Shown here: positions 19,159 through 42,594 of the stretch, in pieces
How the letters are laid out: each line of letters opens with the position of its first letter
Numbering within the stretch: the stretch's first letter is position 1
Origin: Hydrogenimonas sp. SS33
Lineage (GTDB): Bacteria > Campylobacterota > Campylobacteria > Campylobacterales > Hydrogenimonadaceae
Reading direction: 5' to 3'
DNA length: 64,000 nt
NCBI RefSeq assembly: GCF_040436365.1
Contig: NZ_AP026369.1
Coordinates: 1,055,501 to 1,119,500, forward strand
The notes under the pieces: model-generated
Seen by the model: only the letters and a program-made list of their open reading frames with translations
The model's database searches: none
Told to the model about the DNA's origin: nothing
Program-made: the position numbers and the translations under genes

Positions 19159-19172
19159 AACCCCCTTCTACT
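19154..19172. terminator. Hairpin spanning the stop codons of convergent genes
   Basis: AGTAGAA-CCCCC-TTCTACT. The perfect 7-base stem contains the TAG stops of both flanking genes. No U tract on either side; it may act as a weak bidirectional terminator or block exonucleases. Confidence 0.4.
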
Positions 19173-21489
19173 CCGAAACGATTTTCAAAAACTCCTCTTC
19201 CGGTACCGGCGGACTGAAAAAGAATCCCTGGCAGAGTATCGACGGTTCGATCTGACGAAGCTTCTCCACCTGTTCTCTTGTTTCGACCCCTTCGGCCACG
19301 ATGGTATATCCGAACTGTTTGGCAATATCGACAATGGCCCGGACAAGCGCTACATCATCTTCGTCCGTCAGAATGTCCCGAATAAAGGACCGGTCGATTT
19401 TGATCGTTTCAAAATCAAATCGCTTCAGATAAGAGAGTGAGGAGTATCCCGTGCCGAAATCGTCGATCATGAAGCCGATCCCCACCCGGTTGAATCCGGA
19501 AATGATCTCTCTGGCTTTTTCACTCTCTTCCATCAAGACACTTTCGGTGATTTCGAATTTCAACATTCTCGGATCGATCCCGTACCGCTTTACCAGCAGC
19601 ATTACCTCATCGAAAAAATTCTGATGTCGGAACTGTTTGGAACTGAGGTTGACACTGACATAATAGAAATTCAGTTTGCCCTCCTCTTCCCATTTCCTGA
19701 TATGCCGGCATACCTCTTCGATAACCCAGTGCCCGATTTGATGTATGAGCTTCGACTCTTCCGCCACGGGAATAAATTCCGCCGGCGAAACCGTGGTCCC
19801 GTCATCAAGCCGCCAGCGCAACAGCGCTTCGGCTCCGTAAATCCTTTCCCTCTCCATTTCGACAATGGGCTGAAACTCCAGACGAAGCTGATCCCTGTCG
19901 ATGGCATGGCGCAGCTGATGCTCCAGCCAGATGATACGTCTGAGCCGCTTGTCCATCTCCTCTTCATAGAAGGAGGTGTTCCCCTGCCCTTTCCGCTTGG
20001 CGTTGTACATGGCGATATCCGCTTTTCGCAGAATTTCGTCCAGCGGCTGGCTGTCGCCTTTGACGATCACCGCACCGATACTGGTGGTGATATAGAGCTT
20101 TTTCCCTTCAATTTCGATCGGTTCGGACATGGCATCGTGAATCTTTCGGCAGATGTGAAAAGTATGTTCCAGGCTTTCCGTCCGGTCTTTGGAGAGCATC
20201 GGCAGAAAGATGATGAATTCGTCGCCCCCCAGCCGGCAGACTGTATCGCCCTGCCGCAGCAGGGTACGGAGCCTTTTTGCCGTAATCACCAGAAGTTCGT
20301 CCCCGATCCCGTGGCCGTAGGTGTCGTTGATATGTTTGAAACGGTCCAGGTCGAGAAAGAGAATGGCGGAGTAGTACCCTTCGCGGGCCGCCTGGGCGAT
20401 CTGAAGCCGAAATCTGTCTTCAAGAAGTTTCCGGTTGGGCAGCCCGGTCAAACCGTCATGGTAGGCGAGAAATTCGGCTTTCTGCTGTGCTTTGTGTTCC
20501 GACGACTTGTCCTGGACCACCGCAATCCCGCCGATGACGTTGCCGTCGTAGTCCATCAGCGGAGAAAAGACCGTGGAGACCCATATCTCCGAACCGTTTG
20601 CGGTGATGACATAGGGGCCCTCGTAATGTACGACCCGTTTCTCTTCGATCACTTTCCGGACGTTGGCAAAAGGCCTGCGGTCTTTGAGCTGCAGCAAATT
20701 GCTTCCGAGAATGTTTTCTCTCGGAATCCGCAAGAAACGGGAAAGCGCGATATTGCAGTCGACTACATTATAGTCCCTGTCGAAATAGAAGATCCCCACC
20801 GGAGCCTGCTCCGCTATCTGGTCGAGGCGCTGACGGAGAAGTCCGAGTTCCCGATACTGCCGGATCCCCTTTTTCAGAATCTTTCCCAGAATGTCGGTGC
20901 TCATGATAAACGTGGCGATGTAGATGAGAGAAAGAAGGGCCAGGATGTAATGGATCGCATCCCCGCACAGCAAAAAGCGGATGACAAGCGCCGACATGAC
21001 CAAAACCACGTAGGTACGTGACAGGTTCCTGTCGATGGCCAGATTGACGGTTCCGCCGCCGGCCATCCCCACAATGATCAGTGCCAGGATCAGCTCCTGG
21101 AGGGGATGCCCCTCCGGGTAGAGGAAGAGAGCGGCAGCCGCCCACAACAGAACCGTCACCGTCACTTCATAGCGGAATCGGCGGTACCGCTTTTCCAGGT
21201 TTTTGGATGCGCCGTAATGACAATGCTGTACCGCATGGTATATCCGTACCGCCACGGTTCCGGTAATGGCAGAAAGCCAGATTAAAATCAGCGTATGATC
21301 GACGACGGGCCACAAAAAATAGGAGAGAGCAGCAGCGATGAAGAGGGTGAACACCATCGTCGTCGGTACTTTGTCGCATACGGTTTCGACGACCTGTTCC
21401 CGAAGAAAGGATTCATAGACTTCGGAAGCTCCTTTCTCTCTTCCCCTCCATCGGCCGACATATCCCGCTATCTTATCCCATATCTTCAT
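19168..21489 (-). CDS. Membrane-bound PAS-GGDEF-EAL protein (c-di-GMP turnover)
   Basis: 773 residues. Five to six N-terminal membrane segments (to ~residue 210), a PAS domain (~225-340), GGDEF (~345-510) with intact RLGGDEF and an RxGD inhibitory site five residues before it, and EAL (~520-773) with GAEALLRW, VNLSSKQF, ITESVLM, IDDFGTGYSSL and VAEGVET. All key catalytic residues of both domains are present, so it could make or degrade c-di-GMP. The window also holds a c-di-GMP-type riboswitch. Confidence 0.93.
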   Translation of the reverse strand: MKIWDKIAGYVGRWRGREKGASEVYESFLREQVVETVCDKVPTTMVFTLFIAAALSYFLWPVVDHTLILIWLSAITGTVAVRIYHAVQHCHYGASKNLEKRYRRFRYEVTVTVLLWAAAALFLYPEGHPLQELILALIIVGMAGGGTVNLAIDRNLSRTYVVLVMSALVIRFLLCGDAIHYILALLSLIYIATFIMSTDILGKILKKGIRQYRELGLLRQRLDQIAEQAPVGIFYFDRDYNVVDCNIALSRFLRIPRENILGSNLLQLKDRRPFANVRKVIEEKRVVHYEGPYVITANGSEIWVSTVFSPLMDYDGNVIGGIAVVQDKSSEHKAQQKAEFLAYHDGLTGLPNRKLLEDRFRLQIAQAAREGYYSAILFLDLDRFKHINDTYGHGIGDELLVITAKRLRTLLRQGDTVCRLGGDEFIIFLPMLSKDRTESLEHTFHICRKIHDAMSEPIEIEGKKLYITTSIGAVIVKGDSQPLDEILRKADIAMYNAKRKGQGNTSFYEEEMDKRLRRIIWLEHQLRHAIDRDQLRLEFQPIVEMERERIYGAEALLRWRLDDGTTVSPAEFIPVAEESKLIHQIGHWVIEEVCRHIRKWEEEGKLNFYYVSVNLSSKQFRHQNFFDEVMLLVKRYGIDPRMLKFEITESVLMEESEKAREIISGFNRVGIGFMIDDFGTGYSSLSYLKRFDFETIKIDRSFIRDILTDEDDVALVRAIVDIAKQFGYTIVAEGVETREQVEKLRQIEPSILCQGFFFSPPVPEEEFLKIVSE

Positions 21490-24524: not shown

Positions 24525-27500
24525 TCAATCTTCCCTTATCGGCCCATAACCGCCCCCGCCCGGCGTCTCGATGCGCACCACGTCGCCGGGAAAGACCTGC
24601 AGCCGGGCCTTGGCCCCCAGGTCGCGGATGACGCCCTCCCTGATGAGGAGGTTGCGCCCCTTTTCGCCCGGTTCGCCTCCCGCCATGCCGAAGGGGGCGA
24701 AGACGCGCCGTTCGCTGAGGATGGCAAACGCCATAGGCTCAAGAAAGCGGTAGTGGCGGATGAGACTGTCCCCTCCGGCGTGCGCTCCCATGCCGCCCGA
24801 GCCGTGCCGCAGGGCGAAGGATTCGACGACGACCGGATAGCGTCGCTCCAGAATCTCCACGTCGGTGATGCGGGTGTTGGTCATGTGGGTATGGACCCCG
24901 TCGCAGCCGTCGGCCTGGGCGGTCGCCCCCGCGCCGCCGGCGATCGTCTCGTAATAGCCGAAGGCATCGTTGCCGAACGTGACGTTGTTCATGCACCCCT
25001 GGCTCGCCGCCGCTTCCCCGAACGCCCCCAGCACCACATCGACGATGCGCTGGCTGGTGGTGACGTTACCGCCCACCACCGCCGCGTCGGCGGAGGGGTT
25101 GAGCAGCGACCCTTCGGGCAGCACCAGCCGCACCGGGGCCAGCAGGCCGTCGTTGAGCGGCAGGGGACGGCGCAGCATCGCCCGCAGGGCGTAGAGCACC
25201 GCCGAACGCACGACGGAGGGCGGGGTGTTCTGGTTGCCGAAGAGCTGCGGCGACGTGCCGGTAAAATCGAAGAGCGCCTCTCCGTTGTCGTCCACGCTGA
25301 TCGCCAGCCGAATCTCCGCCCCGCCGTCGAGCCGGTCGGCAAAGGCGTAGCGCCCCGCCCGCCGGGCCAGCCACCGGCGCATCGCATTTTCGCTGACGGC
25401 CAGGATCTCGGCCATGTAGCTTCGCACACTCTCTTCGCCGCTTTGCCCCATCAGCGCCAGTACACCCTCCAGGCCCGCCCTGTTGGCGGCCAGCTGCGCC
25501 CGCAGGTCGCTGAGGTTGTCGGCGATGTTTCTGGCCCCCGCCTTTTGTAAAAGGGCGACGACCTTCTCTTCCGCCATTCGCCCCTCTTGCACCAGCGCAA
25601 AGGCTTCGATGAGCGCCCCCTCTTCGCCGATAGTCGCGGAAAAGGGGGGCATGGAGCCCGGCACCTTGCCGCCGATGTCGGCGTGATGGCCCCGGCTGGC
25701 GACCCAGAAAAGCACTTCGCCCTCCCTGACGAAGGGGGTGGCGACGGTGATGTCGGGCAGGTGGGAGCCCCCTTCGTGCGGGGCGTTGGTGATGAAACTC
25801 ACCCCCTCTTCGAAAGTGCCGAACTTTTCGATGAGCGCGCGCACGACGCTGCTCATGGAGCCCAGATGCACGGGAATGTGCGGCGCGTTGCTCACAAGCC
25901 GCCCATCAGCGTCGAAAATGGCGCAGGAGAAATCGAGGCGCTCCTTGATGTTGGTCGACACCGCGCTTTTTTGCAGCATCTGCCCCATCCTCTCGGCGAT
26001 GAAATGGAAGCGGTTTTGCATCAGCGCCAGCCGGACGCCGTCGATACCGCTCTCCGGCTCTTTCGCCCGGGGCACATCGATGTAGAGGTCGCCGAAACCG
26101 TCCACCCGCGCCCGGCAGCCGGGCTCCAGAACGATGGTGGAGGTCTCCTGCATCACAAGTGCCGGCCCGGCGATTTCGGCGCCGCTGCCCAGTGCCGCCA
26201 TTTCGTAGACCGGCGCGTCGTGCCACTCTCCCGCGAGGTAGAGGCGCTGGAAATGGATGGGGGAAGGTTTGCCCGCTTGGGGGGCGATGGTAGGGCGCGC
26301 CCATCCGTCGGTCTCGTAGGTCGCCACCAGGCGCACCGACTCGGCGATGAGCCCGCGCTCGGGCATCAAAAACCCGAACTGCCGCCGGTAGGCTTCTTCG
26401 AAAGCCGCTTTCGCCTTTTTGTATGGGACTTCGATACGGTTTTCGGCCCCCTCGTAGCGCACCGTCACCAGATAATCAAGCAAGGCCCCAGCCAGCGGCT
26501 CCTCCTCTTCAAGCCTTTCGCGCAGCGGTTCGTAGGCGGCGATGCCAAGCTTCTTTAACGGCAGTTCCACCAGCATAGAGGCGTCCCGCCGCCGTTTGGC
26601 CAGCGCCATGCCGTAGGCCGACAAAATCCCCGCGTAACGGTGGATGACGACCGTTCTTATGCCCAGCTTCTTCGCCACCGCCACCGCATGCTGCCCGCCG
26701 GCGCCGCCGAAGGCGCAGAGGCGGTGCGACGCCGCGTCGAACCCCCGCTTTTCGGTAATCTCGCGAATGGCGGCGGCCATCTGTTCGTTGGCCACTTCCA
26801 GGAATCCCTCGGCGACCGCTTCGATACTTTGGTTGAGGCGTTTCGCGATGGGTTCGAAACCCTCCCGTGCCGCCGCCACGTCAAGCGGCGCATCGCCGCC
26901 GGGGCCGAAAATGGCGGGAAAGAGGCGCGCATCGAGGCGCCCGGTGACGAGATTGGCGTCGGTAATGCTCAAAAAACCCCGCCGGCCGTAACAGAGCGGC
27001 CCCGGGTCCGCCCCGCTGCTTTCGGGCCCTACGACAAAAAGGCCGTCACGCAGGAAAAGACGGCTCCCGCCGCCGCTGGCCACCGTATGCAGATCCACCT
27101 GGGGAGCGCGGACTCTCATCCCCTCCACGGCGCTTTCGTGCCGCAGGGCGACCTGCCCGTCGTAGCGGCAGACATCGGTACTGGTTCCTCCCATGTCAAA
27201 ACCGATGAGCGGCGTGCCCTCATAAATCGACGCCAGGGCCGTCACACCCCCCGCCGGGCCGCTGAGCAGCGCCCTGGAACCGCGAAAGGCCGCCATGGCG
27301 CACAGGTCGCCGCTGCTTTGCATCATCAAGGTTTTGGCGGCGATGTTACCGTCGAAAGCCGCGCGAAACGTGTCGAGGTAGTGTTGGAGTTTCGGCGTCA
27401 GGTAGGCGTCGCACAGCGTCGTCTGCGCCCTGGCCAGGTAACCCGGCATCGGGTCCACTCCGTGGCTGCAGGTCGTTCGCATGCCCCTTCGTTCCGCTTC

Positions 27501-28043
27501 CTCTGCCACGGCCTTTTCATGCGTGTCAAAGGCGTAAGCGTGCTTGAGGCAGATGGCGATGTTTTTCGTTTTGGCGTTTTTCAGGCGCGCCTGCAGTGCG
27601 GGCAGGTCGACTGCCTTTTCAACCTCCGCCCGCCCCCGGCGCCAAAGCACCCGTTCGGGCACTTCCACGATCTCTTCATAGAGCGGTTCGGGCTTTTCAA
27701 TCTCCAGGGCGAAGAGGTCGGGGCGGCTCTGGTCACCGATGCGAAGCAGGTCTTTAAACCCCTCCGTCACCACCAGCGTCACCGGCTCGCCCTTGCGCTC
27801 CAGCAGCGCATTGGTGGCGATGGTGGTCCCCATACGGACCCAGCCGATCTTCTCGACCGGTATCTTTCGCACCTCCACGCCCAGTTCGCGAAAAACTTCG
27901 CCGATGGCGTGGCTGCACGCTTCCGGGTAGAACGGGCTTTGGCTGAGCACTTTTTTGACGATGAACCGCTCCCCCACCCGGGCGATGAGGTCGGTGAAGG
28001 TGCCGCCCCGGTCGATGGCGAATTGGATAGTTTCACCGCTCAT
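24525..28043 (-). CDS. 5-oxoprolinase-like protein (hydantoinase A-B fusion)
   Basis: 1172 residues, slightly shorter than eukaryotic-type ATP-dependent 5-oxoprolinase (~1280). N-terminal HyuA half: [38 protein letters not shown]-terminal HyuB half from about residue 650 ([44 protein letters not shown]). It opens 5-oxoproline or related lactams such as hydantoins using ATP. DNA is clearly GC-richer than the glycan region, and the gene is isolated between murC and a toxin-antitoxin pair, hinting at acquisition. Confidence 0.88.
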
Positions 28044-31619: not shown

Positions 31620-33005
31620 TCAGGCTTTGATAAAAGAGGGGGAATCGGTGTAGACGGTGGAGGGGTCGATGACGCCGTATCCGCCTGTGAGGACTTCCGG
31701 ATTGGTAATGCCGTAGAGAGCGTAAATCGTCGCCGCGATACTGTATGCCGGAAACTGGAACGAATCGCGTGTGGGCCTGTTGTACAGCCGGGCTTTTGGA
31801 AGCCAGTTGTGCAACTCCGTCTCACCCACAATGCCGAGAGTATTCAGATATTTTTTTCCTCCAAACCAGTAGACCGCCTGGTTGTTCCCATGATCCCACC
31901 CTTTTGAACGGTTCAGATTGAGATTGCGGCCGAAATCTCCGTAGAGGACAATATTGATATTGTCCCGTCCCTCCGCTTTCGCATGCGCCATGGCGACTTC
32001 GATCGCTTCGAACATCTCTCTGGCGCGGCTTCTGTGCAGAGGAAGTGCATCGGAATGGTCATCCCATCCACTGTGCCCTCCGGAAATGGTCACCACTTTC
32101 GTATCGGGGTTGGTCGTCAAAATCCGCATCGCCGTTTCAAATTTTTTCCCGTCTATCGTTTTGGGATACTCTACCGGGATCTCTTTCGTTCTCGCCTCTT
32201 CGATAAAATCACTGATCTCATGGCGTTGTTTGAAAACCGTATTCAATGCATCGTAATGGTTGTGCCTAAGCATCAAAGCATCCAGGCGCTCACTGTAATG
32301 CACTTCGTTGAAAAGTTTGTTGGTGGAGTAGTCACCCAGATCTACCTGCCCCTGATCATCGACTTTGTATTTGTACGGGTTGTCAAAGTTCCTGTTAAAG
32401 GAAATGGGGCGCATAAAGGTCGGCAACGGCTCCTTTGTCGCGAAATCCTGGAGCAGTTTGTAGAATCCGCCGTCGATGCAGACATTCGGGAACAGGCTTT
32501 TTTCATTGACCGCCCCATGTTGCAGCAGCACATGCATGAGCGTCGTGACGATTCCCGACTCATACCCTTTGTCGTTCCCGTGGCAGTAACGTTTCTGATT
32601 GATGCCGTGGGCGACACTGGCATGGTCGCGGTAACAGGTTCTAAAAAGTGTCAGATCTCCGTTTTCAACCATTTTCTCCAGAATATCGCCGCCCGCTTCC
32701 TGCCAGAACCCGTTTTTCGTTACGGTAAAGTCATTTTCTCCGTAGGGAATCTGTGACAGGTCGTTTTCCCTGATTTCGGGAAGATGATTCAAATTGGAGA
32801 CGGCATCGCTCATACCGCCGCCCAGGTAGACTACTATAGTCTGGGCATCGTTTTTTGCGAAAATTTCGGCATCGAAGGCTACATTTTCCAGAGGCAGGGC
32901 CGATGTGCCGTCATCGGGAATGATATCTGCCCGCAGCATGCCGGGCGCAACGGCCGCGGCAGCCGCGATTCCAATGGCACTTTTCAAAAATTCCCTTCGT
33001 TTCAT
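31620..33005 (-). CDS. DUF1501 protein with Tat signal
   Basis: 461 residues. N-terminal MKRREFLKSAIGIAAAAAVA is a classical twin-arginine signal. The body matches DUF1501 (TIVVYLGGGMSDAVSNLNHL, RDHASVAHGINQKRYCHG, TISGGHSGWDDHSDALPLH, NIVLYGDFGRN), a sulfatase/phosphatase-like fold of unknown function usually paired with DUF1800. The ATG overlaps the stop of the upstream DUF1800-like gene (ATGA). Exported folded, so it may carry a metal. Expression probably depends on the riboswitch upstream. Confidence 0.9.
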   Translation of the reverse strand: MKRREFLKSAIGIAAAAAVAPGMLRADIIPDDGTSALPLENVAFDAEIFAKNDAQTIVVYLGGGMSDAVSNLNHLPEIRENDLSQIPYGENDFTVTKNGFWQEAGGDILEKMVENGDLTLFRTCYRDHASVAHGINQKRYCHGNDKGYESGIVTTLMHVLLQHGAVNEKSLFPNVCIDGGFYKLLQDFATKEPLPTFMRPISFNRNFDNPYKYKVDDQGQVDLGDYSTNKLFNEVHYSERLDALMLRHNHYDALNTVFKQRHEISDFIEEARTKEIPVEYPKTIDGKKFETAMRILTTNPDTKVVTISGGHSGWDDHSDALPLHRSRAREMFEAIEVAMAHAKAEGRDNINIVLYGDFGRNLNLNRSKGWDHGNNQAVYWFGGKKYLNTLGIVGETELHNWLPKARLYNRPTRDSFQFPAYSIAATIYALYGITNPEVLTGGYGVIDPSTVYTDSPSFIKA

Positions 33006-35068
33006 GATGCATCTCCTCTCGTTACTTTCGTGTATGTATAAATCTCACTCTGGCGGGAAAAGTAGTCAAATGCCAACAACATGACGGCGAATTTGTCCCA
33101 CTCGCTCATCTGCTCGGTATCGATTCCCGCCTCCTTCACGATCTCCGTCAATGTTTCGGTTTCATCCCCGGTCATTTTTCTACCCACGATATCTTCAAAC
33201 ATCTCGTTGAGATAACTTTTCAGGTCCTTTCCGGGATATCGCTTTTTCAAGTCCGCCGGATTCCAGCCGTCGCCTTTTCTGTTGAGGAAAACGTTGCTTC
33301 TGATGTATTGATGCAGGCGGATGACACTGTCTGTATCCGACACACCTTCGTCCAGCCGTCCCAGCTTGTAGGTAAAAGGGGCCTGACTGCTGGGAATCAG
33401 ACAAGCTGTCAGCAGATTGCGGAATGTGGTGCCTGAGGGCTTCATATCCAACAGATGCGCCAGTCCGAAATAGAGCTCCTCTCCACTTTTGAGACGATCG
33501 GACTCCAGCAGAAATTTGTCGGAAAAGAGGATCTGTTCGAAAATATCCTGAAAGGTTTTCGGATTGGACGCCAAAATGGCAGCGGCGGCTTTTTTCTTCT
33601 CATCGCTGGAGAATGTCGGGAAAAAGAGCCCCACCAACCGGTCGACCACTGTCGGGACAAGACGCGGACTGCCTGCCACCATTTTGTAGAAATCCGTACC
33701 CGTCGTTATACCTTTGTTGAAAATCTCCACAGTTTCGCTGTTGATTTCCGCGGGATTGTTCGTATCATTGTAGAAGCGGAAGATATCTCCGTAATCTCCT
33801 TTCCCGTTCTCTTTCTCCCGCCGGACTTCCCATCTCCAGTTCCTGAGTGCTTTCGCCGCCAGAGGGACATGGGAGTCGTCATAGTCATAAAGCCAGATCT
33901 CCAGCATCTCCCTGCCGTTGTCCTCAGGGCTTCTGAAGCGTGCCCAGTTCTCTTTGGAAACCATGTGTTCATAGACGATCTGACGAATCGTCTTTTTGTC
34001 GGCCAGTGCCTTTTCAAGCCGTTCATAGTTGCTCGCAATCAGTTCCGGGAACTTGACGACACTGTCCACTTCGTAGGCGGGAGAGAACATGATCGTCTGA
34101 TCGAGCACGTAGGCGATCCATTCGTTGAAATAGGATTCACTCAGCCTCGTATAGTAGAGCGTGGAAGCGATATGGGCGAAAATTCTCCAGCGTTTTTCAA
34201 ACAGACTGTTTCCTGCTCGCGCATTGTAGGGGATTTCATATGTATCCTGATAGATCTTGTCGAGATCCGGCTGTGCTACCCCGGTCGCATGAAGTTTGTT
34301 GCGGAAATCGCTGATGAAGTGACCGCTTGCGATCTCTTTTTTGATGGTTGCTATGTCTCTTGCTTTGTAGAGAGTATTGTAGAGTTTTTTGGCGACATAG
34401 ATGCGCTGCTCTTCGCTCAACCGGTTGAACGCATTGTCGTCGAGCTGAACAAATGCAAACCGATCGGATCCGCCGCTTTTTTTCGTCTCCTCGGAGGTGA
34501 CGACCTTCTGAGGTGATTTTTCCGCCTCTTTCGCAAGGGTTTCGGCGACATGTTCTTTCGCCTCTTCCCGTGTCACGGGCCTGATCCCCTCGATTCCATA
34601 CTCCTCTTTCAGGCTTTGCACAAGCGAAGCGATCTCGTCGTCGTTTTCGGGAATTTTCTCGATTCCTTTCGCTTTCAACGCATCCGCAACCCGGGCGTCG
34701 ATGCGGATCTTTCCGCCGTCGGGATCACTGTCCAGCGACTGCAGCAGTGCCGCAACCGCAGGGTCCGTCTCCACAAAAACGACGCCGTTCTCCAGCTTGT
34801 CGGCAGGAATGGTGCGAAGGAGAATACCCCCCAGATAGAAACTGCATGCGGATCCTTTTTCAAAACGGAAGCTTCCGTCACTGTCCGTGACTCCGCTGTT
34901 GTTTCCGCACCGATAGGAGATGCCGGCCACCGCTTCATCTACATAATATCCCGTCCCGCTTGAGCGTGTCTGTTCGGTGGCACTGTTGCTGCCGTTGCTG
35001 CCGCCGCAGCCGGTCAGAAACAGCACCGCCAATGCGGGGATGACAACTGTCAGCCAAAATTTCTTCAT
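33002..35068 (-). CDS. DUF1800-like lipoprotein
   Basis: 688 residues. Start ATG 35068 has a strong GGAGGAAAACG ahead and begins a lipoprotein signal (MKKFWLTVVIPALAVLFLTGC, lipobox Cys 21). After a ~190-residue region like a surface carbohydrate- or adhesion-type module, the DUF1800-type helical body starts (SEEQRIYVAKKLYNTLY, RFRSPEDNGREMLEIWLYDY). DUF1800/DUF1501 pairs occur in many Gram-negatives and are exported; roles are not established. This copy is divergent from typical DUF1800. Preceded by a ~300-base leader with a c-di-GMP-type aptamer. Confidence 0.78.
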   Translation of the reverse strand: MKKFWLTVVIPALAVLFLTGCGGSNGSNSATEQTRSSGTGYYVDEAVAGISYRCGNNSGVTDSDGSFRFEKGSACSFYLGGILLRTIPADKLENGVVFVETDPAVAALLQSLDSDPDGGKIRIDARVADALKAKGIEKIPENDDEIASLVQSLKEEYGIEGIRPVTREEAKEHVAETLAKEAEKSPQKVVTSEETKKSGGSDRFAFVQLDDNAFNRLSEEQRIYVAKKLYNTLYKARDIATIKKEIASGHFISDFRNKLHATGVAQPDLDKIYQDTYEIPYNARAGNSLFEKRWRIFAHIASTLYYTRLSESYFNEWIAYVLDQTIMFSPAYEVDSVVKFPELIASNYERLEKALADKKTIRQIVYEHMVSKENWARFRSPEDNGREMLEIWLYDYDDSHVPLAAKALRNWRWEVRREKENGKGDYGDIFRFYNDTNNPAEINSETVEIFNKGITTGTDFYKMVAGSPRLVPTVVDRLVGLFFPTFSSDEKKKAAAAILASNPKTFQDIFEQILFSDKFLLESDRLKSGEELYFGLAHLLDMKPSGTTFRNLLTACLIPSSQAPFTYKLGRLDEGVSDTDSVIRLHQYIRSNVFLNRKGDGWNPADLKKRYPGKDLKSYLNEMFEDIVGRKMTGDETETLTEIVKEAGIDTEQMSEWDKFAVMLLAFDYFSRQSEIYTYTKVTRGDAS

Positions 35069-35219
35069 CGTTTTCCTCCGTTTTTCAGCCTCTATGGGCA
35101 ATTCCGTGAGTATTATAGTACACACGGTGCGCAGAAAGAGTGAATTTTCATTTTCGTTAATGAAAGATCACTCACATTCACATTGTCAACCGTTTTGTAA
35201 ATCGGGAAGGATGTTCGGG

Positions 35220-35262
35220 AAAAGAGATGTTTCTCCGAAACACTCTTCATGGGCATGAAGAG
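35220..35262 (-). terminator. Riboswitch expression platform: two hairpins and U-rich tail
   Basis: Directly after the aptamer on the minus strand: CTCTTCATG/CATGAAGAG (35262-35243, 9-base complementary arms), then TGTTTC-GGA-GAAACA (35242-35228), then TCTCTTTT. The first arm shares two bases with the aptamer end. This looks like a conditional terminator; which ligand state terminates is unknown. Confidence 0.6.
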
Positions 35263-35332
35263 GCAACCCGGCTGTCTTCTTCCGTCAAAGACCCGTGGCT
35301 TTCCGTCCCTGCTTCACAACAGGTTTGGCAAT
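35261..35332 (-). ncRNA. GEMM-I (c-di-GMP-I type) riboswitch aptamer
   Basis: Read on the minus strand: GCCAAACC, then helix CCTGTT-GTGA-AGCAGG with a GNRA tetraloop (35323-35308), GGGACGGAAAGCC, ACGGGTCTT (tetraloop-receptor side), a second helix GTCTT/AAGAC (35292-35288 and 35278-35274), then ACAGCCGGGTTGCC. Order, loop type and the conserved AAAGCC-ACGGGTC and AGCCGGGTTGCC blocks are those of GEMM-I. It lies ~190 bases before the DUF1800-like gene in the same direction. The base aligned to the ligand-selective position appears to be G, as in c-di-GMP rather than cGAMP sensors, but alignment by eye is uncertain. Confidence 0.85.
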
Positions 35333-35391
35333 AGGCAGATTTACCTGCAAAAGAGCTTGCCGGACATAGATCCGACATTTCGTTCACATCA

Positions 35392-35397
35392 ATTATA
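35392..35397 (-). promoter_or_regulatory. -10 box upstream of the riboswitch
   Basis: TATAAT on the minus strand about 60 bases before the aptamer, with no good -35 hexamer. A second TATAAT at 35112-35117, downstream of the riboswitch, could give riboswitch-independent transcription of the operon. Confidence 0.45.
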
Positions 35398-35631: not shown

Positions 35632-36504
35632 ATGATGAAAGGCATCATTCTCGCAGGCGGGAGCGGAACGAGACTCTATCCCGCGACACAGGTGATCAGT
35701 AAGCAACTGCTTCCCGTATATGACAAGCCGATGATCTATTATCCACTCTCCGTTCTGATGCTTGCGGGCATCAGGGAGGTATTGATTATCTCCACCCCCG
35801 AGGACCTCCCCCGGTTCGAGCAGCTTCTGGGTGACGGAAGCCACCTGGGTATGAAGTTCGAATACGCCGTTCAGGAACACCCCAACGGGCTTGCCGAAGC
35901 TTTCATTATCGGCGAAAAGTTTATAGGTGACGATGGGGTCTCCCTGATACTCGGCGACAACATTTTTTACGGTCCGGGACTGACCCCTTTGGTCGAAGCG
36001 GCGGCACATAGAAAAGACGGTGCGACCATTTTCGGCTACCAGGTCAAGGACCCCGAACGCTACGGTGTCGTTGAATTCGACGAAAAGATGAATGTCATTT
36101 CCATCGAGGAGAAACCGGCAAAACCCAAAAGCAATTTCGCGGTCACAGGCCTCTATTTTTACGACAATGACGTCATAGACATCGCAAAAAACACCCAGCC
36201 CTCCGCACGCGGTGAACTGGAGATCACCTCCGTCAACAAGGAGTATCTGCGGCGCGGAAAACTTCGGGTAGAATTGCTGCGGCGCGGATATGCCTGGCTC
36301 GACACGGGTACCCATGAAAGTATGGCCGAAGCGGGCACTTTCATTCGTACCATCGAACACCGCCAGGGATACAAAGTCGCCTGTATCGAGGAGATCGCCC
36401 ACTACAAGGGATGGATCTCCGACGAAGAGCTCATCGCTCTGGCGGAGCCCTATAAACAGACCGAATACGGCCGATACATGATTGAGATGGCGAAATCCCG
36501 ATGA
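35632..36504 (+). CDS. rfbA: Glucose-1-phosphate thymidylyltransferase
   Basis: 290 residues. [18 protein letters not shown] signature, [21 protein letters not shown], and [13 protein letters not shown]. Makes dTDP-glucose from glucose-1-P and dTTP, the first step to dTDP-deoxysugars. ATG 35632 or 35635. The last codons overlap rfbB (ATGA). First gene of the plus-strand glycan operon. Confidence 0.96.
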
Positions 36505-37571
36505 AACATCTTCTTGTCACCGGAGGAGCCGGCTTCATCGGCAGCAACTTCGTTCCCTATTTTCTGGAAAAACATCCCGACTACCACCTGGTCAATCTCG
36601 ACCTGCTTACCTATGCCGGCAACCCCGACAACCTCAAAGAGGTGGAAGGTCATCCCCGTTACAGTTTCATCCGGGGGAATATCTGCAACCGGGAACTGGT
36701 CGAATATATATTCGATACCTTTGACATCGAAGGGGTCATCCACTTCGCCGCCGAAAGCCATGTGGACAACTCCATCGCCGATCCGGGCATCTTCATGGAG
36801 ACCAACATCAACGGCACTTTCACCCTGCTTGACGTCGCCTACAGACACTGGATGGAAGCCCCTTTCAAATACAAAGAGAAATATCTGAAAAATTCAGAAC
36901 ACAGAGCCCTCCCCCGCTTCCACCACATCAGTACGGACGAAGTCTACGGCACCCTGGGCGAGACGGGACTGTTTACCGAAGAGACCCCCTACGTCCCCAA
37001 CTCACCCTACTCCGCATCGAAAGCGGGCAGCGACATGGTCGTGCGAAGTTACCACCACACCTACGGCATGAACACGGTCATCACCAACTGCTCCAACAAC
37101 TACGGCCCCAAACAGCACGACGAAAAGCTCATACCCACCATCATACGAAACGCCGTCCGGGGCAACCCCATCCCCATTTACGGCGACGGTAAAAACATCC
37201 GCGACTGGCTCTATGTGCTCGACCACTGCAAAGGCATCGACCTGGCCTACCACAAAGGCAGCGCGGGCGAAACCTACAACATCGGCGGCCGCAACGAGCG
37301 GGACAACCTCTACATCGCCGACAAGATATGTGAAATTCTCGACGAATTGCACCCCATAGAAAAAAACACCGAGTTTTCGCCCGAAAGCCGAAACCCGAAA
37401 CCCGGAACCTACAAAGACCTCATAACTTTTGTGCCAGACCGCCCGGGCCATGACCGGCGATACGCCATCGACGCCACGAAGATCGAAACCGAACTCGGCT
37501 GGAGAGCCGACGAAAATTTCGAGAGCGGCATACTGAAAACCGTCCGATGGTATCTGGAGAAGTATCTATGA
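36501..37571 (+). CDS. rfbB: dTDP-glucose 4,6-dehydratase
   Basis: 356 residues, SDR fold: [27 protein letters not shown] (catalytic Asp-Glu), [16 protein letters not shown], and [12 protein letters not shown]. Makes dTDP-4-keto-6-deoxyglucose. Near residues 293-305 it has an unusual insert ([11 protein letters not shown]) encoded by a 7-base tandem repeat, just before the conserved YKDLITFV. Overlaps rfbA and the next gene by 4 bases each. Confidence 0.95.
37382..37409 (+). repeat. Degenerate heptamer repeat inside rfbB
   Basis: CGAAAGC, CGAAACC, CGAAACC, CGGAACC: four 7-base units in tandem within the coding sequence. Only the middle two are identical. A gain or loss of one unit would frameshift rfbB ~50 codons before its end. 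Confidence 0.75.
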
Positions 37572-38650
37572 TCAGCATTCCCTCAGAATACAGAAAGTTT
37601 TTTTACAAGGAGAATCTCTACTTTACGGCAAGTGCATCCACTGCTCTCTATCTGTTTCTCAAAGCCCGTGGAATTTTCCGGAAAAAAGTTATTGTTCCTT
37701 CCAATATCTGCTATACCGTTCCCTACACGATTCTTGGTTCCGGAAACACACCCCTCTTTTGCGATATTGACCCCGAAAGCGGAAATCCTTCCCGCAACGG
37801 AATCGAAAAGTTATTGGAAACAGATGAAAACATCGGGGCTCTCGTACTTCCGCATATGTTTGGGAATCCTGTCCGGGAAAGAACCGGAATCCGTCGCCTT
37901 TGCAGAGAACACGAAATTGCCTTCATCGATGACTGCGCAGGCGCTCTGGGCCTGGAAGACCTCGACGGCGGCATCGCCGAAAACGCCGATGCGGTGATAT
38001 TCAGTTTCAACTACAACAAGCATATTGCGCTGGGGATGGGCGGTTTGCTGGCAACCGATGAAACAATCGATATATCCGCCCTCTCTTCATCCATCAAAAA
38101 CGATGTATCGGTCTATCTTTACAAAAGCAGGATGATCGACAGGCTCTACAAACCTCTTCTCTATTCCGATGATTATGATTTGCTCGTCGGAAAACTTCAC
38201 GGGTTCAACGATTTTTTCGCCGATTCGTTCATCTACCGGTTTACTCCCGATGAAACCTACAAACGGGAGTTCAACCGCTGCCTCGGTCGTATTTCCGAAA
38301 ACAGAGAGTACCGCAGAAGTATCGTCAGTCAACTGGATCAAAAAATCCTTTTCGACGAAAACGGGCCTTTACAGCGCTACCGATTCGAAGAGGGAGCGAA
38401 TCCGTGGCGGTACAATCTGCTTGTCAAATACCCCGATATCAGAAAAAAACTGATCGATGCACTCCTGAAAGCGGAACTTCCCGTCAGTATCTGGTATCCG
38501 CCGGTCGATCCCATCTACGGATACGACATGCAAAAAGAGAGCCTGCTCTTTTCAAAGAAAATTCTCAATTTCGACTTCATCAATGCATCGAAAACGGAAA
38601 TTGACCGGTTTGTAGACATCGTCAATTCCGTCGCGGGGGAGGGAACATGA
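37568..38650 (+). CDS. DegT/DnrJ/EryC1-type PLP sugar aminotransferase, divergent
   Basis: 360 residues. Fold type I features: ASASTALYLFL (PLP phosphate), DIDPESGNP, FIDDCAGALG (PLP Asp), and SFNYNKHIALGMGG with the Schiff-base Lys. More divergent than the WecE- or PseC-like proteins also encoded here; the substrate is not predictable. ATG overlaps the rfbB stop (ATGA), so it is in the same operon as the dTDP-sugar genes. Confidence 0.8.
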   Translation: MISIPSEYRKFFYKENLYFTASASTALYLFLKARGIFRKKVIVPSNICYTVPYTILGSGNTPLFCDIDPESGNPSRNGIEKLLETDENIGALVLPHMFGNPVRERTGIRRLCREHEIAFIDDCAGALGLEDLDGGIAENADAVIFSFNYNKHIALGMGGLLATDETIDISALSSSIKNDVSVYLYKSRMIDRLYKPLLYSDDYDLLVGKLHGFNDFFADSFIYRFTPDETYKREFNRCLGRISENREYRRSIVSQLDQKILFDENGPLQRYRFEEGANPWRYNLLVKYPDIRKKLIDALLKAELPVSIWYPPVDPIYGYDMQKESLLFSKKILNFDFINASKTEIDRFVDIVNSVAGEGT

Positions 38651-40536
38651 AAAATCCCCCCTATATTTCGGTCATTACGCCGGTTTACGGATGTGCGGAA
38701 AACCTGAGAGAGCTCTATCATCGACTAGTCAAAACCCTCTCCGCCATCACGGAGAATTTCGAAATTATCATGGTCTACGACAGGAGTCCCGATGATGCAT
38801 GGCAGATCATCCGGAAGCTTGCTTCCGGGGACCCCAGGGTCAAAGGGATCAAACTTTCCAAAAATTTCGGACAGCACAAAGCGATCACGGCGGGACTGGA
38901 TTATGCCGAAGGAGAGTGGGTGGTAGTCATGGACTGCGACCTCCAGGACCTTCCGGAAGAGATCCCCAAACTTTACCGGACCGCCATGGAAGGCTACGAC
39001 GTGGTTTTCGGCCGCAGAGTCCGCCGGAAAGACAATATATTAAAACGGATTTCATCAAAAATAAACTATTTTATTTTCAACCGTTTGAGCGGCATTCCTT
39101 TTGACGAGTCCATTGCCAATTTCAGTATCATTTCCGGAAAAGTGGTTCAAGCCCATCGAAAGATTCGTGAGCAAAACCGCTCCTACTCCATATTCACTTA
39201 TTGGATGGGATTTCGCAGAAAGGATATTGAAATTGAACATGCACCGAGGAAGCATGGACGAAGCACCTACTCGTTCAAAAAACTTGTCAAACTGGCACTC
39301 GACGGCATTGTCGCCCACTCCAACAAGCCTCTTCAGATTTCGACATATTTCGGCTTCGCTCTCTCGCTGTTCAGCCTTCTGTATGCGATGTGGCTCGTTT
39401 TACAATATTTCCTCTTCGAAATCACGGTGCCCGGTTGGACCAGTGTCATGGTTTCCCTCTATTTTATCGGCGGGCTTCTCTTTGCAAACATCGGTATCAT
39501 CGGGGTCTACGTGGGGAAAATTTTCCACGAAACCAAAAACAGACCGCTCTATCTGATCCAGGAAACGACATTCCGCCCCGACGAACAGCTCTCTGTTTTT
39601 CCGTCCCCTGCGGTCTCCGTTGTCGTTCCTGTGCGCAATTGTGCTTCCGAAATCGAATCACTCTGCCGAGAAACAGTCAAGACACTCCGCAAACTGACGG
39701 AAAATTTCGAGCTCATTCTTGTCGATGACGCCAGCAAAGACAGTACATGGGATGCAATTTCCGAAATGGCACGCATCGAACCGAGAATCAAGGGTATTGA
39801 GCTCTCCAGGGAGTTCGGCCTTTGCTGGGCACTGACCGCCGGTCTCGATTTCGCAGAAGGGGAACGGGTCGTGGTCATGGATTGCAACGGCATAGACAAC
39901 CCCGCCGAGATTCCCGAACTTTACAGGAAAGCCGAAGAGGGGTACGACGTAGTATTTGGAACCTACCGTCATCCGGGAGATGGGAAGGAGAAATTTTTCA
40001 GAAAATATTTTTCAAAAATACTGGAATCGGCAAGCGGTATCGAAATCGAACCTGAAATGACGAATTTCAGTATCGTATCAAAAAGAGTTTTGGAGAATTA
40101 CAGAAAGCTGAGAGAGCATTATCGCAGCTATATCCCCTTTATCCGGTGGCTTGGTTTCGAAACGGTTCAAATTCCGCTCAAAGGGAGGGAAGAGAAAAAC
40201 CTTCAAAACCGAAAAACTTTCAAGAAGCTTCTTTTCCATCAGCTTCACTCGGTTATCACACTTTCCAACAAGCCTCTGCGGCTTTCCATGGAATTCGGTT
40301 TCATCATGACTGCTGCAAGCCTGATTTACGGTTCATGGCTGATCCTCAAATATTTTCTCTATGGCATCCCCGTTCCCGGATGGACGAGTGTCATGGTCTC
40401 CATTTACTTTATAGGAGGAATGCTTTTCGCCAACCTCGGTGTTCTCGGACTCTATATCGGAAAAATCTTCAATGAAACCAAAAAGAGGCCCATCTATATT
40501 GTCGAAGAGACCACATTCGGAAACGGTGAAAAATGA
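38647..40536 (+). CDS. Tandem fusion of two GT2 polyprenyl-phosphate glycosyltransferases
   Basis: 629 residues made of two DPM/GtrB-type units (1-~312 and ~318-629), each a GT2 domain plus a pair of C-terminal membrane helices (about 235-257 and 268-293; 548-570 and 582-605). Unit 1 keeps the DxD (Asp 96-Cys-Asp 98) and R..G.S.Y loop (201-208) but has VYDRS (43-47) where VDDGS is expected. Unit 2 keeps VDDAS (359-363), but DxD reads DCN (412-414) and the R..G.S loop is lost. It would transfer a sugar to undecaprenyl phosphate. ATG overlaps the previous stop. Confidence 0.88.
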   Translation: MKNPPYISVITPVYGCAENLRELYHRLVKTLSAITENFEIIMVYDRSPDDAWQIIRKLASGDPRVKGIKLSKNFGQHKAITAGLDYAEGEWVVVMDCDLQDLPEEIPKLYRTAMEGYDVVFGRRVRRKDNILKRISSKINYFIFNRLSGIPFDESIANFSIISGKVVQAHRKIREQNRSYSIFTYWMGFRRKDIEIEHAPRKHGRSTYSFKKLVKLALDGIVAHSNKPLQISTYFGFALSLFSLLYAMWLVLQYFLFEITVPGWTSVMVSLYFIGGLLFANIGIIGVYVGKIFHETKNRPLYLIQETTFRPDEQLSVFPSPAVSVVVPVRNCASEIESLCRETVKTLRKLTENFELILVDDASKDSTWDAISEMARIEPRIKGIELSREFGLCWALTAGLDFAEGERVVVMDCNGIDNPAEIPELYRKAEEGYDVVFGTYRHPGDGKEKFFRKYFSKILESASGIEIEPEMTNFSIVSKRVLENYRKLREHYRSYIPFIRWLGFETVQIPLKGREEKNLQNRKTFKKLLFHQLHSVITLSNKPLRLSMEFGFIMTAASLIYGSWLILKYFLYGIPVPGWTSVMVSIYFIGGMLFANLGVLGLYIGKIFNETKKRPIYIVEETTFGNGEK

Positions 40537-41438
40537 AAAAGAGAGAACGTCGGAAAAGCAACCGGCTGAAATTTGTTCTCAAAATCGGCGTCTCCGTTTC
40601 GGTTATCGCCTATCTGCTTTACCAAATCGACTTCGATGCGCTTCGCGCCCTCACCGCCGAGGTGCTGCTTTACATTTTTTTGGCACTGCTTACCATGTTC
40701 GGAGCTCTCGTTTTCATGACTCTGAGGTGGAAGTATGTCCTGAACCTCATGAAACCCGGCAGATATGAGTGGCACAGACTCTTCGAATATTACCTGATCG
40801 GCTCTTTTTTCAACAACATCATTCCCGGTTCACTCGGCGGAGATGCCGTGAGACTCTACTATGCGAGCGAGACTTTCCATATTTCGAAAAAACTCTCCTT
40901 TTCGGCTGTCCTGATCGAAAGAGTGGCCGGTCTTTTCGCATTGTCACTGATTCTGATGGTCTCTCTTTTCTTTAACGAAACGATCAGGGAAAAACTTCAC
41001 TTCGGATATCCCACCATTATGGCCGGTATTGCCGCAACTCTTCTGATCCTCATCGCTGCCCGATATTACATAGGCAAAACCCTGCCCCTCAGGGGCATGG
41101 ATCTGCCTGTTATTCTGCTGCTTTCCGTACTGGGGCAGATGGGAGACATTCTCGTAAGCTATCAATATGCTCTCTATTATCATCTAGATTTGACGGTTGT
41201 CAATCTGATGTCGATTATGCCTCTGGTCTATATCGCTACCGTCATCCCCATATCTCTCGGCGGCGTCGGGGTCCGGGAAGGGGTGATGACTGCGGGCATG
41301 GCCCTGTACGGCATTGATGTCCCCGATGCCGTCATGGTCTCTTTTCTGTTATACTTCACAAAAATCCTGATGGGAATGTCCGGCTGGGTTCTTTATGTCA
41401 AAACAGGAAAAATCCATGTCAAAGAGCGTGTGGAATGA
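40533..41438 (+). CDS. UPF0104/LPG-synthase-TM type membrane protein
   Basis: 301 residues, about eight membrane segments. Family pattern GSFFNNIIPGSLGGDAVRLYY, VLIERVAGLFAL and PISLGGVGVREGVM. Such proteins are flippase-like or lipid-modifying and often sit in glycan clusters. Function here is unknown. ATG overlaps the stop of the fusion glycosyltransferase (ATGA). Confidence 0.85.
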   Translation: MKKRERRKSNRLKFVLKIGVSVSVIAYLLYQIDFDALRALTAEVLLYIFLALLTMFGALVFMTLRWKYVLNLMKPGRYEWHRLFEYYLIGSFFNNIIPGSLGGDAVRLYYASETFHISKKLSFSAVLIERVAGLFALSLILMVSLFFNETIREKLHFGYPTIMAGIAATLLILIAARYYIGKTLPLRGMDLPVILLLSVLGQMGDILVSYQYALYYHLDLTVVNLMSIMPLVYIATVIPISLGGVGVREGVMTAGMALYGIDVPDAVMVSFLLYFTKILMGMSGWVLYVKTGKIHVKERVE

Positions 41439-42594
41439 AACGGGTAGAATGCGAATAATCGATTTCAACAGGCCCGCAGTGGCAGGCAACGAAACCCGAT
41501 ACATCACCGATGTGATAGAAAGTCGGCGACTTTCGGGCAACGGAGATTTCACCCGCAAATGCCATGCATGGTTCGAAGAGAGACTCGCTTGCAAGAGGGC
41601 GCTTCTCACCCCATCCTGTACAGATGCCCTCGAAATGGCATCCATCCTGACCGATATAGGCCCTGGCGATGAGGTCATCATGCCCAGCTATACTTTTGTA
41701 TCCACCGCCAACGCTTTTGTACTGCGTGGAGCAAAAATCGTTTTCGTCGACATACGTCCCGATACGATGAATATCGACGAGACACTTATCGAGAATGCCC
41801 TGACCGACAAAACCAGGGCAATCGTTCCGGTCCACTATGCCGGAGTCGGATGTGAAATGGAAACAATTTTGAGAATCGCTTCCGAAAACGGTCTTTACGT
41901 CGTTGAAGATGCCGCCCAGGGCATGATGGCGACCTACCGCGGCCGCCCCCTGGGAACCCTGGGGCATCTTGGAACCTACAGTTTTCATGAAACGAAAAAT
42001 TACACCAGCGGAGGCGAGGGGGGACTTTTGATCGTGAACGATCAACGATTTTCCGAAAGAGCGGAAATCATTCGGGAAAAAGGGACCGACAGAAGTCTGT
42101 TTCTTCGCGGAATGGTGGACAAATATACATGGGTAGACAAAGGAAGCAGTTTTTTGCCGGGAGAACTCTCGGCGGCGTATCTGTACGCCCAACTCGAAAA
42201 GGCGGAAGAGATCCTGGAGAAGAGAATGCGTCTTTGGCGGATCTACCGGCACTCTCTCTCTTCTCTCCGTGACAAAGGGTGGATAGAACTCCCCCACATT
42301 CCCGCAGAATGCAACCACAACGCCCATATGTTCTACATCAAAACCGATTCGTCAAAGACAAGATCCCGCCTGATCCGTCACCTTCGGAACAGGGGAATCG
42401 AAGCTGTTTTTCACTACATTCCGCTACATTCCAGCAAGGCCGGTCAAAGATTCGGCAGATTTTCCGGTGAGGACCGGTTCACGACGCGGGAAAGTGAAAG
42501 ATTGCTTCGGCTTCCTCTCTTCTACGATCTTTCGGAAGATGGAGTGGAAAGAGTCTGCGATGAGATCAAGGATTTCTATGTTCGGAATCGATAG
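41416..42594 (+). CDS. wecE: dTDP-4-amino-4,6-dideoxygalactose transaminase (WecE/RffA-like)
   Basis: About 392 residues. DegT-family aminotransferase: PSCTDALEMASIL, VEDAAQGMMATY, YSFHETKNYTSGGEGG with the Schiff-base Lys, and the WecE-like tail FHYIPLHSSKAGQRFG. It would convert dTDP-4-keto-6-deoxyglucose (from RfbAB) to dTDP-Fuc4N. Start ATG 41416 with AGGA 7 bases ahead overlaps the previous gene; ATG 41449 is an alternative. Confidence 0.82.
   Translation: MSKSVWNETGRMRIIDFNRPAVAGNETRYITDVIESRRLSGNGDFTRKCHAWFEERLACKRALLTPSCTDALEMASILTDIGPGDEVIMPSYTFVSTANAFVLRGAKIVFVDIRPDTMNIDETLIENALTDKTRAIVPVHYAGVGCEMETILRIASENGLYVVEDAAQGMMATYRGRPLGTLGHLGTYSFHETKNYTSGGEGGLLIVNDQRFSERAEIIREKGTDRSLFLRGMVDKYTWVDKGSSFLPGELSAAYLYAQLEKAEEILEKRMRLWRIYRHSLSSLRDKGWIELPHIPAECNHNAHMFYIKTDSSKTRSRLIRHLRNRGIEAVFHYIPLHSSKAGQRFGRFSGEDRFTTRESERLLRLPLFYDLSEDGVERVCDEIKDFYVRNR

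Follow-up and report, generated by a model that had tools for sequence, protein, structure and literature searches.

A canonical c-di-GMP-I (GEMM-I) riboswitch aptamer stands on the minus strand of the window (the whole 64,000-nucleotide stretch analysed), upstream of and co-directional with a gene pair encoding a lipoprotein (ATG at 35068) and a DUF1501 protein, the features of which are collected in Table 1. The genome, a 2.25-Mb single contig, is that of a vent-dwelling Hydrogenimonas, in keeping with the preliminary description, which had assigned it to the Campylobacterota and had seen the RNA as running with this operon. Our reading, to which we attach a probability of about 45%, is of a P1-less c-di-GMP-I riboswitch in an operon with two transcripts, the longer of which would carry it in its 5′ leader; in this RNA a downstream ‘anti-core’ strand would compete with ligand for the aptamer core and c-di-GMP is slightly likelier to turn expression on than off.

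Table 1. Positions of the riboswitch, its expression platform and the genes behind it, in window coordinates
Feature	Positions	Strand	Remarks
Probable -10 box TATAAT, promoter of the riboswitch transcript	35392..35397	minus	from sequence
c-di-GMP-I (GEMM-I) aptamer	35259..35339	minus	RF01051 62.3 bits, RF03167 60.9 bits
Core strand GGGACGGAAAGC, invariant; comprises the 3′ side of P2, the A47-bearing junction and the 5′ side of P3	35298..35309	minus	
Hairpin h1, 8 bp, 5′ strand starting exactly at Vc2 position 93	35243..35262	minus	-7.8 kcal/mol
Terminator-like hairpin UCUCUUUU, weak, tail UUUUCCC	35221..35248	minus	-10.3 kcal/mol
Anti-core (switch) strand UCCUUCCC	35204..35211	minus	complementary to 35309-35302 except C44
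Imperfect palindrome TTTCATTAACGAAAATGAA	35146..35164	minus	conserved in close relatives
-10 box TATAAT, probable second, internal promoter	35112..35117	minus	between riboswitch and gene
688-aa lipoprotein, lipobox LTGC, extra N-terminal domain	33002..35068	minus	remote DUF1800 relative
DUF1501 protein, twin-arginine signal MKRREFLK	31620..33005	minus	PF07394 E 1.8e-9

The GEMM-I class had been proposed from the letters alone, and an Infernal search with the Rfam covariance model RF01051 (c-di-GMP-I) bears it out, with a significant match well above the cut-off (62.3 bits, GA 35); the motifs AAAGCC-ACGGGTC and AGCCGGGTTGCC and the GNRA-capped helix are likewise present as quoted. When the whole window was scanned with cmscan, this element was the sole riboswitch recovered, at 35338-35258 on the minus strand, and Rfam clan competition gave it the label c-di-GMP-I-GGC (RF03167, 60.9 bits, GA 59, E 6e-12), by a margin over the cut-off so narrow that the choice is a borderline tie. 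The ligand contacts of the Vibrio aptamer Vc2 are G20, A47 and C92 (PMC4744006); in our own alignment to Vc2 numbering these fall at 35329, 35302 and 35263, and they are identical in 24/24 copies of the genus. The interhelical C44-G83 pair described in the same work (PMC4744006) is present (C 35305, G 35272), and P2 is capped by a GNRA loop (GUGA, 35317-35314). Because contact residues, interhelical pair and loop are all in place, we regard this as an ordinary c-di-GMP aptamer.

We take an A at position 20 to mark cGAMP-type GEMM-I RNAs and, as we ourselves understand the name GGC and the consensus of the model, G47 to be the hallmark of c-di-GMP-I-GGC. Position 20 is a selectivity factor according to the literature. 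That the ligand is cGAMP, or whatever the GGC variant binds, is very improbable: clan competition does name the variant, but RF01051 scores higher than RF03167, and position 20 is G and position 47 is A, not G, in the window and all 24 genus copies, on which grounds both the cGAMP and the GGC readings were rejected. As the preliminary description had also held, the contact residues argue against cGAMP and point to c-di-GMP.

The aptamer has no recognisable P1 helix, complementarity between its 5′ and 3′ flanks in the genus copies being no higher than in shuffles (3.9 vs 4.3). P1 is not obligatory for the family, Cd1 lacking it and yet binding c-di-GMP (PMC9262584). Some 14 relatives have a TATAAT-like box only 12–17 nt 5′ of G20, so that in many copies little transcript is left for a P1 strand; in the window the distance is 62 nt, and the leader is therefore longer.

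What follows the aptamer is partly conserved. The h1 stem occurs at the position-93 register in 12/24 copies, against a mean of 0.64 and a maximum of 4 in dinucleotide shuffles. Its 3′ strand is overlapped by the terminator-like hairpin, the strand AAGAG being common to both in the window, and the tail after the two hairpins reads UCUCUUUUCC. The two hairpins and U-rich tail noticed earlier were thus found, the first non-random across relatives and the second at chance level, its pairing scoring 73.0 against 71.8 in shuffles. This comparison went against a three-strand terminator/antiterminator switch, appealing though one is in the window. Such a switch would be of the Cd1 type, with h1 as antiterminator and ligand favouring the terminator, so that read-through is shut off. 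We consider it unlikely, if a serious contender: the shared strand, the similar energies of the two hairpins, the non-random register of h1 and the precedent of P1-less Cd1, which works in this way (PMC9262584), speak for it, but the terminator pairing is not distinguished from shuffles across relatives, and the conserved anti-core, made after the terminator, would be left without a role.

The anti-core strand, which is CU-rich, G-poor and about 40–60 nt 3′ of the aptamer, lies outside the span covered by the preliminary description. Its predicted pairing partner is the core strand, and across the genus this pairing was equalled by 0/200 shuffled platforms and was stronger than with 193/200 shuffled cores. 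Where the core carries A45, U stands opposite in the anti-core (L218 and L232 of Sulfurovum, and L130 of genome G147), and in L130 the two strands form 11 uninterrupted pairs (z -5.3). Such compensation was seen at three loci and partly at a fourth, L204, and suggests that in a few cases from other genera the anti-core covaries with the ligand-binding core. No anti-core was detectable in 7/10 scanned loci of the lipoprotein family from outside the genus, and other platforms therefore exist. U-rich tracts follow the anti-core in L130 and L015; a proper U-tract is missing after most anti-core helices, that of the window included (then GAUUUAC).

Exposure of the anti-core might act in another way, if, once freed by ligand, it served as a Rho loading site or paired with the purine-rich ribosome-binding site. 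The composition of the strand would suit the former, and pairing between platform and ribosome-binding site was equalled by only 2/200 shuffles; a locus-specific pairing of this kind nevertheless failed the permutation test (p 0.22), and genus members have their start codon some 100–330 nt away, with a probable promoter in between. We think this quite unlikely.

On the favoured reading, then, c-di-GMP would keep the core strand within P2, the ligand pocket and P3, h1 stacking in the place of P1. Without ligand, the later-made anti-core would invade the core, pair with it and so break up the pocket; the two folds would be mutually exclusive, and the choice between them would set read-through into the operon. 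The aptamer class, its context, the register of h1 and the conservation of the anti-core are established; a contest between ligand and anti-core for the core strand is inferred. Which fold is the productive one is close to evenly balanced. We slightly favour the anti-core fold as the down state, with c-di-GMP turning read-through on, because the anti-core is transcribed too late to prevent the putative terminator, which precedes it, and some loci have U-rich sequence after the anti-core. The Vc1/gbpA riboswitch, a c-di-GMP ON switch, counts on the same side; Cd1 of Clostridioides difficile, P1-less and an OFF switch (PMC9262584), counts against it, and the second hairpin of the window could, contrary to our reading, be a simple terminator.

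The riboswitch is probably not the only input. Across 21 relatives, TATAAT-like boxes close upstream of the start codon scored a total of 111, compared with 99.4 +/- 2.6 in shuffles (0/200 as high); the evidence for -10 boxes is comparative, and a simple sigma-70 scan returned no -35/-10 promoter in the region. With an internal promoter 3′ of the riboswitch part of expression would escape the switch, and c-di-GMP control is probably partial: transcription initiated there would bypass the aptamer, and c-di-GMP would add to a basal level rather than gate the operon fully. The preliminary description had tied export of the pair to c-di-GMP; a riboswitch does precede the pair, but because of the probable internal promoter the tie would not be a simple one. 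Just upstream of that promoter lies the palindrome, faintly Fur-box-like and a possible operator; a search of its own genome found no excess over a reversed-pattern control.

Taken further, the internal promoter might drive nearly all expression and leave the riboswitch a relic or a minor input. The aptamer is indeed missing in front of a sister DUF1800-like/DUF1501 pair in the same genome (L178, G000:C1:574500-581500, behind a BatD-like gene) and in front of some relatives’ pairs, the promoter-like region remaining in aptamer-less loci. Relics, however, would not keep contact residues and core invariant in 24 copies, nor would the repeated association across genera be expected of them, and we judge this distinctly improbable. 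Several relatives keep an aptamer in the gap where L178 has none, and from the sister pair it follows that c-di-GMP control is dispensable.

The association extends well beyond one locus. Within the Hydrogenimonas group (one genus) the aptamer was found in 15/18 genomes, nearly all copies preceding a gene for a lipoprotein akin to that of the window; behind the second aptamer of the window’s own genome (C1:681717) comes a lipoprotein, part of which is beta-propeller-like. Rfam scans of 80 loci of the lipoprotein family in named records, 63 of them testable upstream, placed an aptamer before the pair in 20/63. Ten of the 20 lie beyond the Hydrogenimonas group, in Sulfurovum, Sulfuricurvum and other Campylobacterales; no Desulfobacterota member among the scanned loci had one. 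Along well-supported branches of the gene tree its presence changes at least 9 times (gains or losses). On these sequence comparisons, the aptamer has been repeatedly gained or lost before the same pair, and is no oddity of a single genome. A true DUF1800/DUF1501 pair also carries one, 47 bp upstream, in genome G049. Order-wide, c-di-GMP-I RNAs were present in 51/299 genomes, and also stand before other surface and signalling genes. Three genomes (G049, G137 and G283) have 7–14 such aptamers each, a number of which precede signalling genes and genes for very large surface proteins, and tandem aptamers precede one lipoprotein gene at L006 (G017:C1:966510-966742), with further tandems in G116 and G233.

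The lipobox and the twin-arginine signal agree with the earlier placement of the RNA before a lipoprotein/Tat pair. The accompanying label, DUF1800/DUF1501, holds for its second half: the DUF1501 protein passes the gathering score of PF07394 (37.7 bits vs 27), and the lipoprotein has no Pfam match, the gathering score of PF08811 (DUF1800) being unmet even by the best among 20 homologues (E 0.09). When a profile of those 20 homologues was aligned with bona fide DUF1800 proteins from the same order using hhalign, the probability was 95.7% (E 9.3e-9), the motif EDNGREMLEIW lying opposite NENYARELMELF (also given as RSPEDNGREMLEIW facing PNENYARELMELF). By profile comparison the lipoprotein is a remote homologue of DUF1800 only, not a member of the Pfam family. 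Its AF2 model is confident (pLDDT 84.8) with a mostly helical body, for which Foldseek found no fold match in the PDB (best E 0.07), recognising only an N-terminal domain similar to the SusC NTE domain. This domain (the N-terminus of 33002-35068) is common to other surface lipoproteins, one of them an MtrC-like multihaem cytochrome encoded in the same genome (L177, G000:C1:105046-107257). The two genes of the window overlap by 4 bases, and a DUF1501 homologue was directly next in 75/75 relatives with enough downstream sequence; relatives of the pair belong mainly to Campylobacterota and Desulfobulbaceae-type bacteria.

To our knowledge, DUF1800/DUF1501 pairs have no known function. Elsewhere in the window, the GGDEF-EAL protein at 19168-21489 (minus strand) is complete, as had been stated (Pfam EAL 1e-73, GGDEF 2e-48). 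A divergent run of sugar-nucleotide and glycosyltransferase genes adjoins the riboswitch (35632-42594; named by sequence reading, rfbA by Pfam), and in relatives, again by sequence reading, polysaccharide genes (kinase/phosphatase, UDP-sugar dehydrogenase, APS kinase) are frequent upstream neighbours. The window also encodes a complete 1172-aa 5-oxoprolinase-type protein (Hydantoinase A/B; 24525-28043, minus). The sole functional hint for the pair in the literature is the conserved position of DUF1800-DUF1501 operons beside bacterial chitin synthase genes (PMC5122149); no chitin synthase was found among the neighbouring genes examined. By guilt by association, the likely site of action of the pair is the cell surface, with matrix polysaccharide perhaps its target.

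Our survey of the open-access literature (subscription papers and preprints were outside its scope) returned nothing joining DUF1800 or DUF1501 with c-di-GMP or riboswitches, and no report of GEMM-I/c-di-GMP-I in Campylobacterota, in agreement with the preliminary remark that no description of the arrangement was known. Provisionally, therefore, the riboswitch class is a known one, and its target is new and recurrent. An RNA sensor placed repeatedly before the pair offers a first, testable physiological lead, surface life under c-di-GMP, and links uncharacterised exported proteins, often encoded beside polysaccharide genes, to the attach-or-swim signal. More tentatively, and with the odds somewhat against it, vent Campylobacterota may possess a P1-less c-di-GMP-I architecture in which a position-93 hairpin replaces P1 and a dedicated anti-core dismantles the pocket, repeatedly recruited to one surface module of DUF1800-like lipoprotein and DUF1501 protein.

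Compared with known systems, the aptamer resembles Vc2 and Vc1 (RF01051) in score, in G20, A47 and C92, in the C44-G83 pair and in the GNRA-capped P2, and like Vc1, which precedes gbpA, it stands before a surface-protein gene. It differs from them in having no P1 helix, in possessing an anti-core switch strand, in its new target gene and in a C21-G46 pair where G21-C46, as in Vc2 and in the consensus of the model, is usual. Overall sequence is also close to c-di-GMP-I-GGC (RF03167), whose cut-off is narrowly reached, but the window has A47 where that consensus has G47. With Cd1 (PMC9262584) it shares a P1-less GEMM-I aptamer and a pairing directly 3′ of the ligand-contacting C; a Cd1-type terminator, however, is unsupported by comparison within the window’s family, and the target is the lipoprotein/DUF1501 pair rather than flagellar genes. 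Like the DUF1800-DUF1501 operons described previously (PMC5122149), the target is a pair of neighbouring genes in which the DUF1501 protein bears a twin-arginine signal, but here the lipoprotein falls below the Pfam cut-off for DUF1800 and a riboswitch stands in front.
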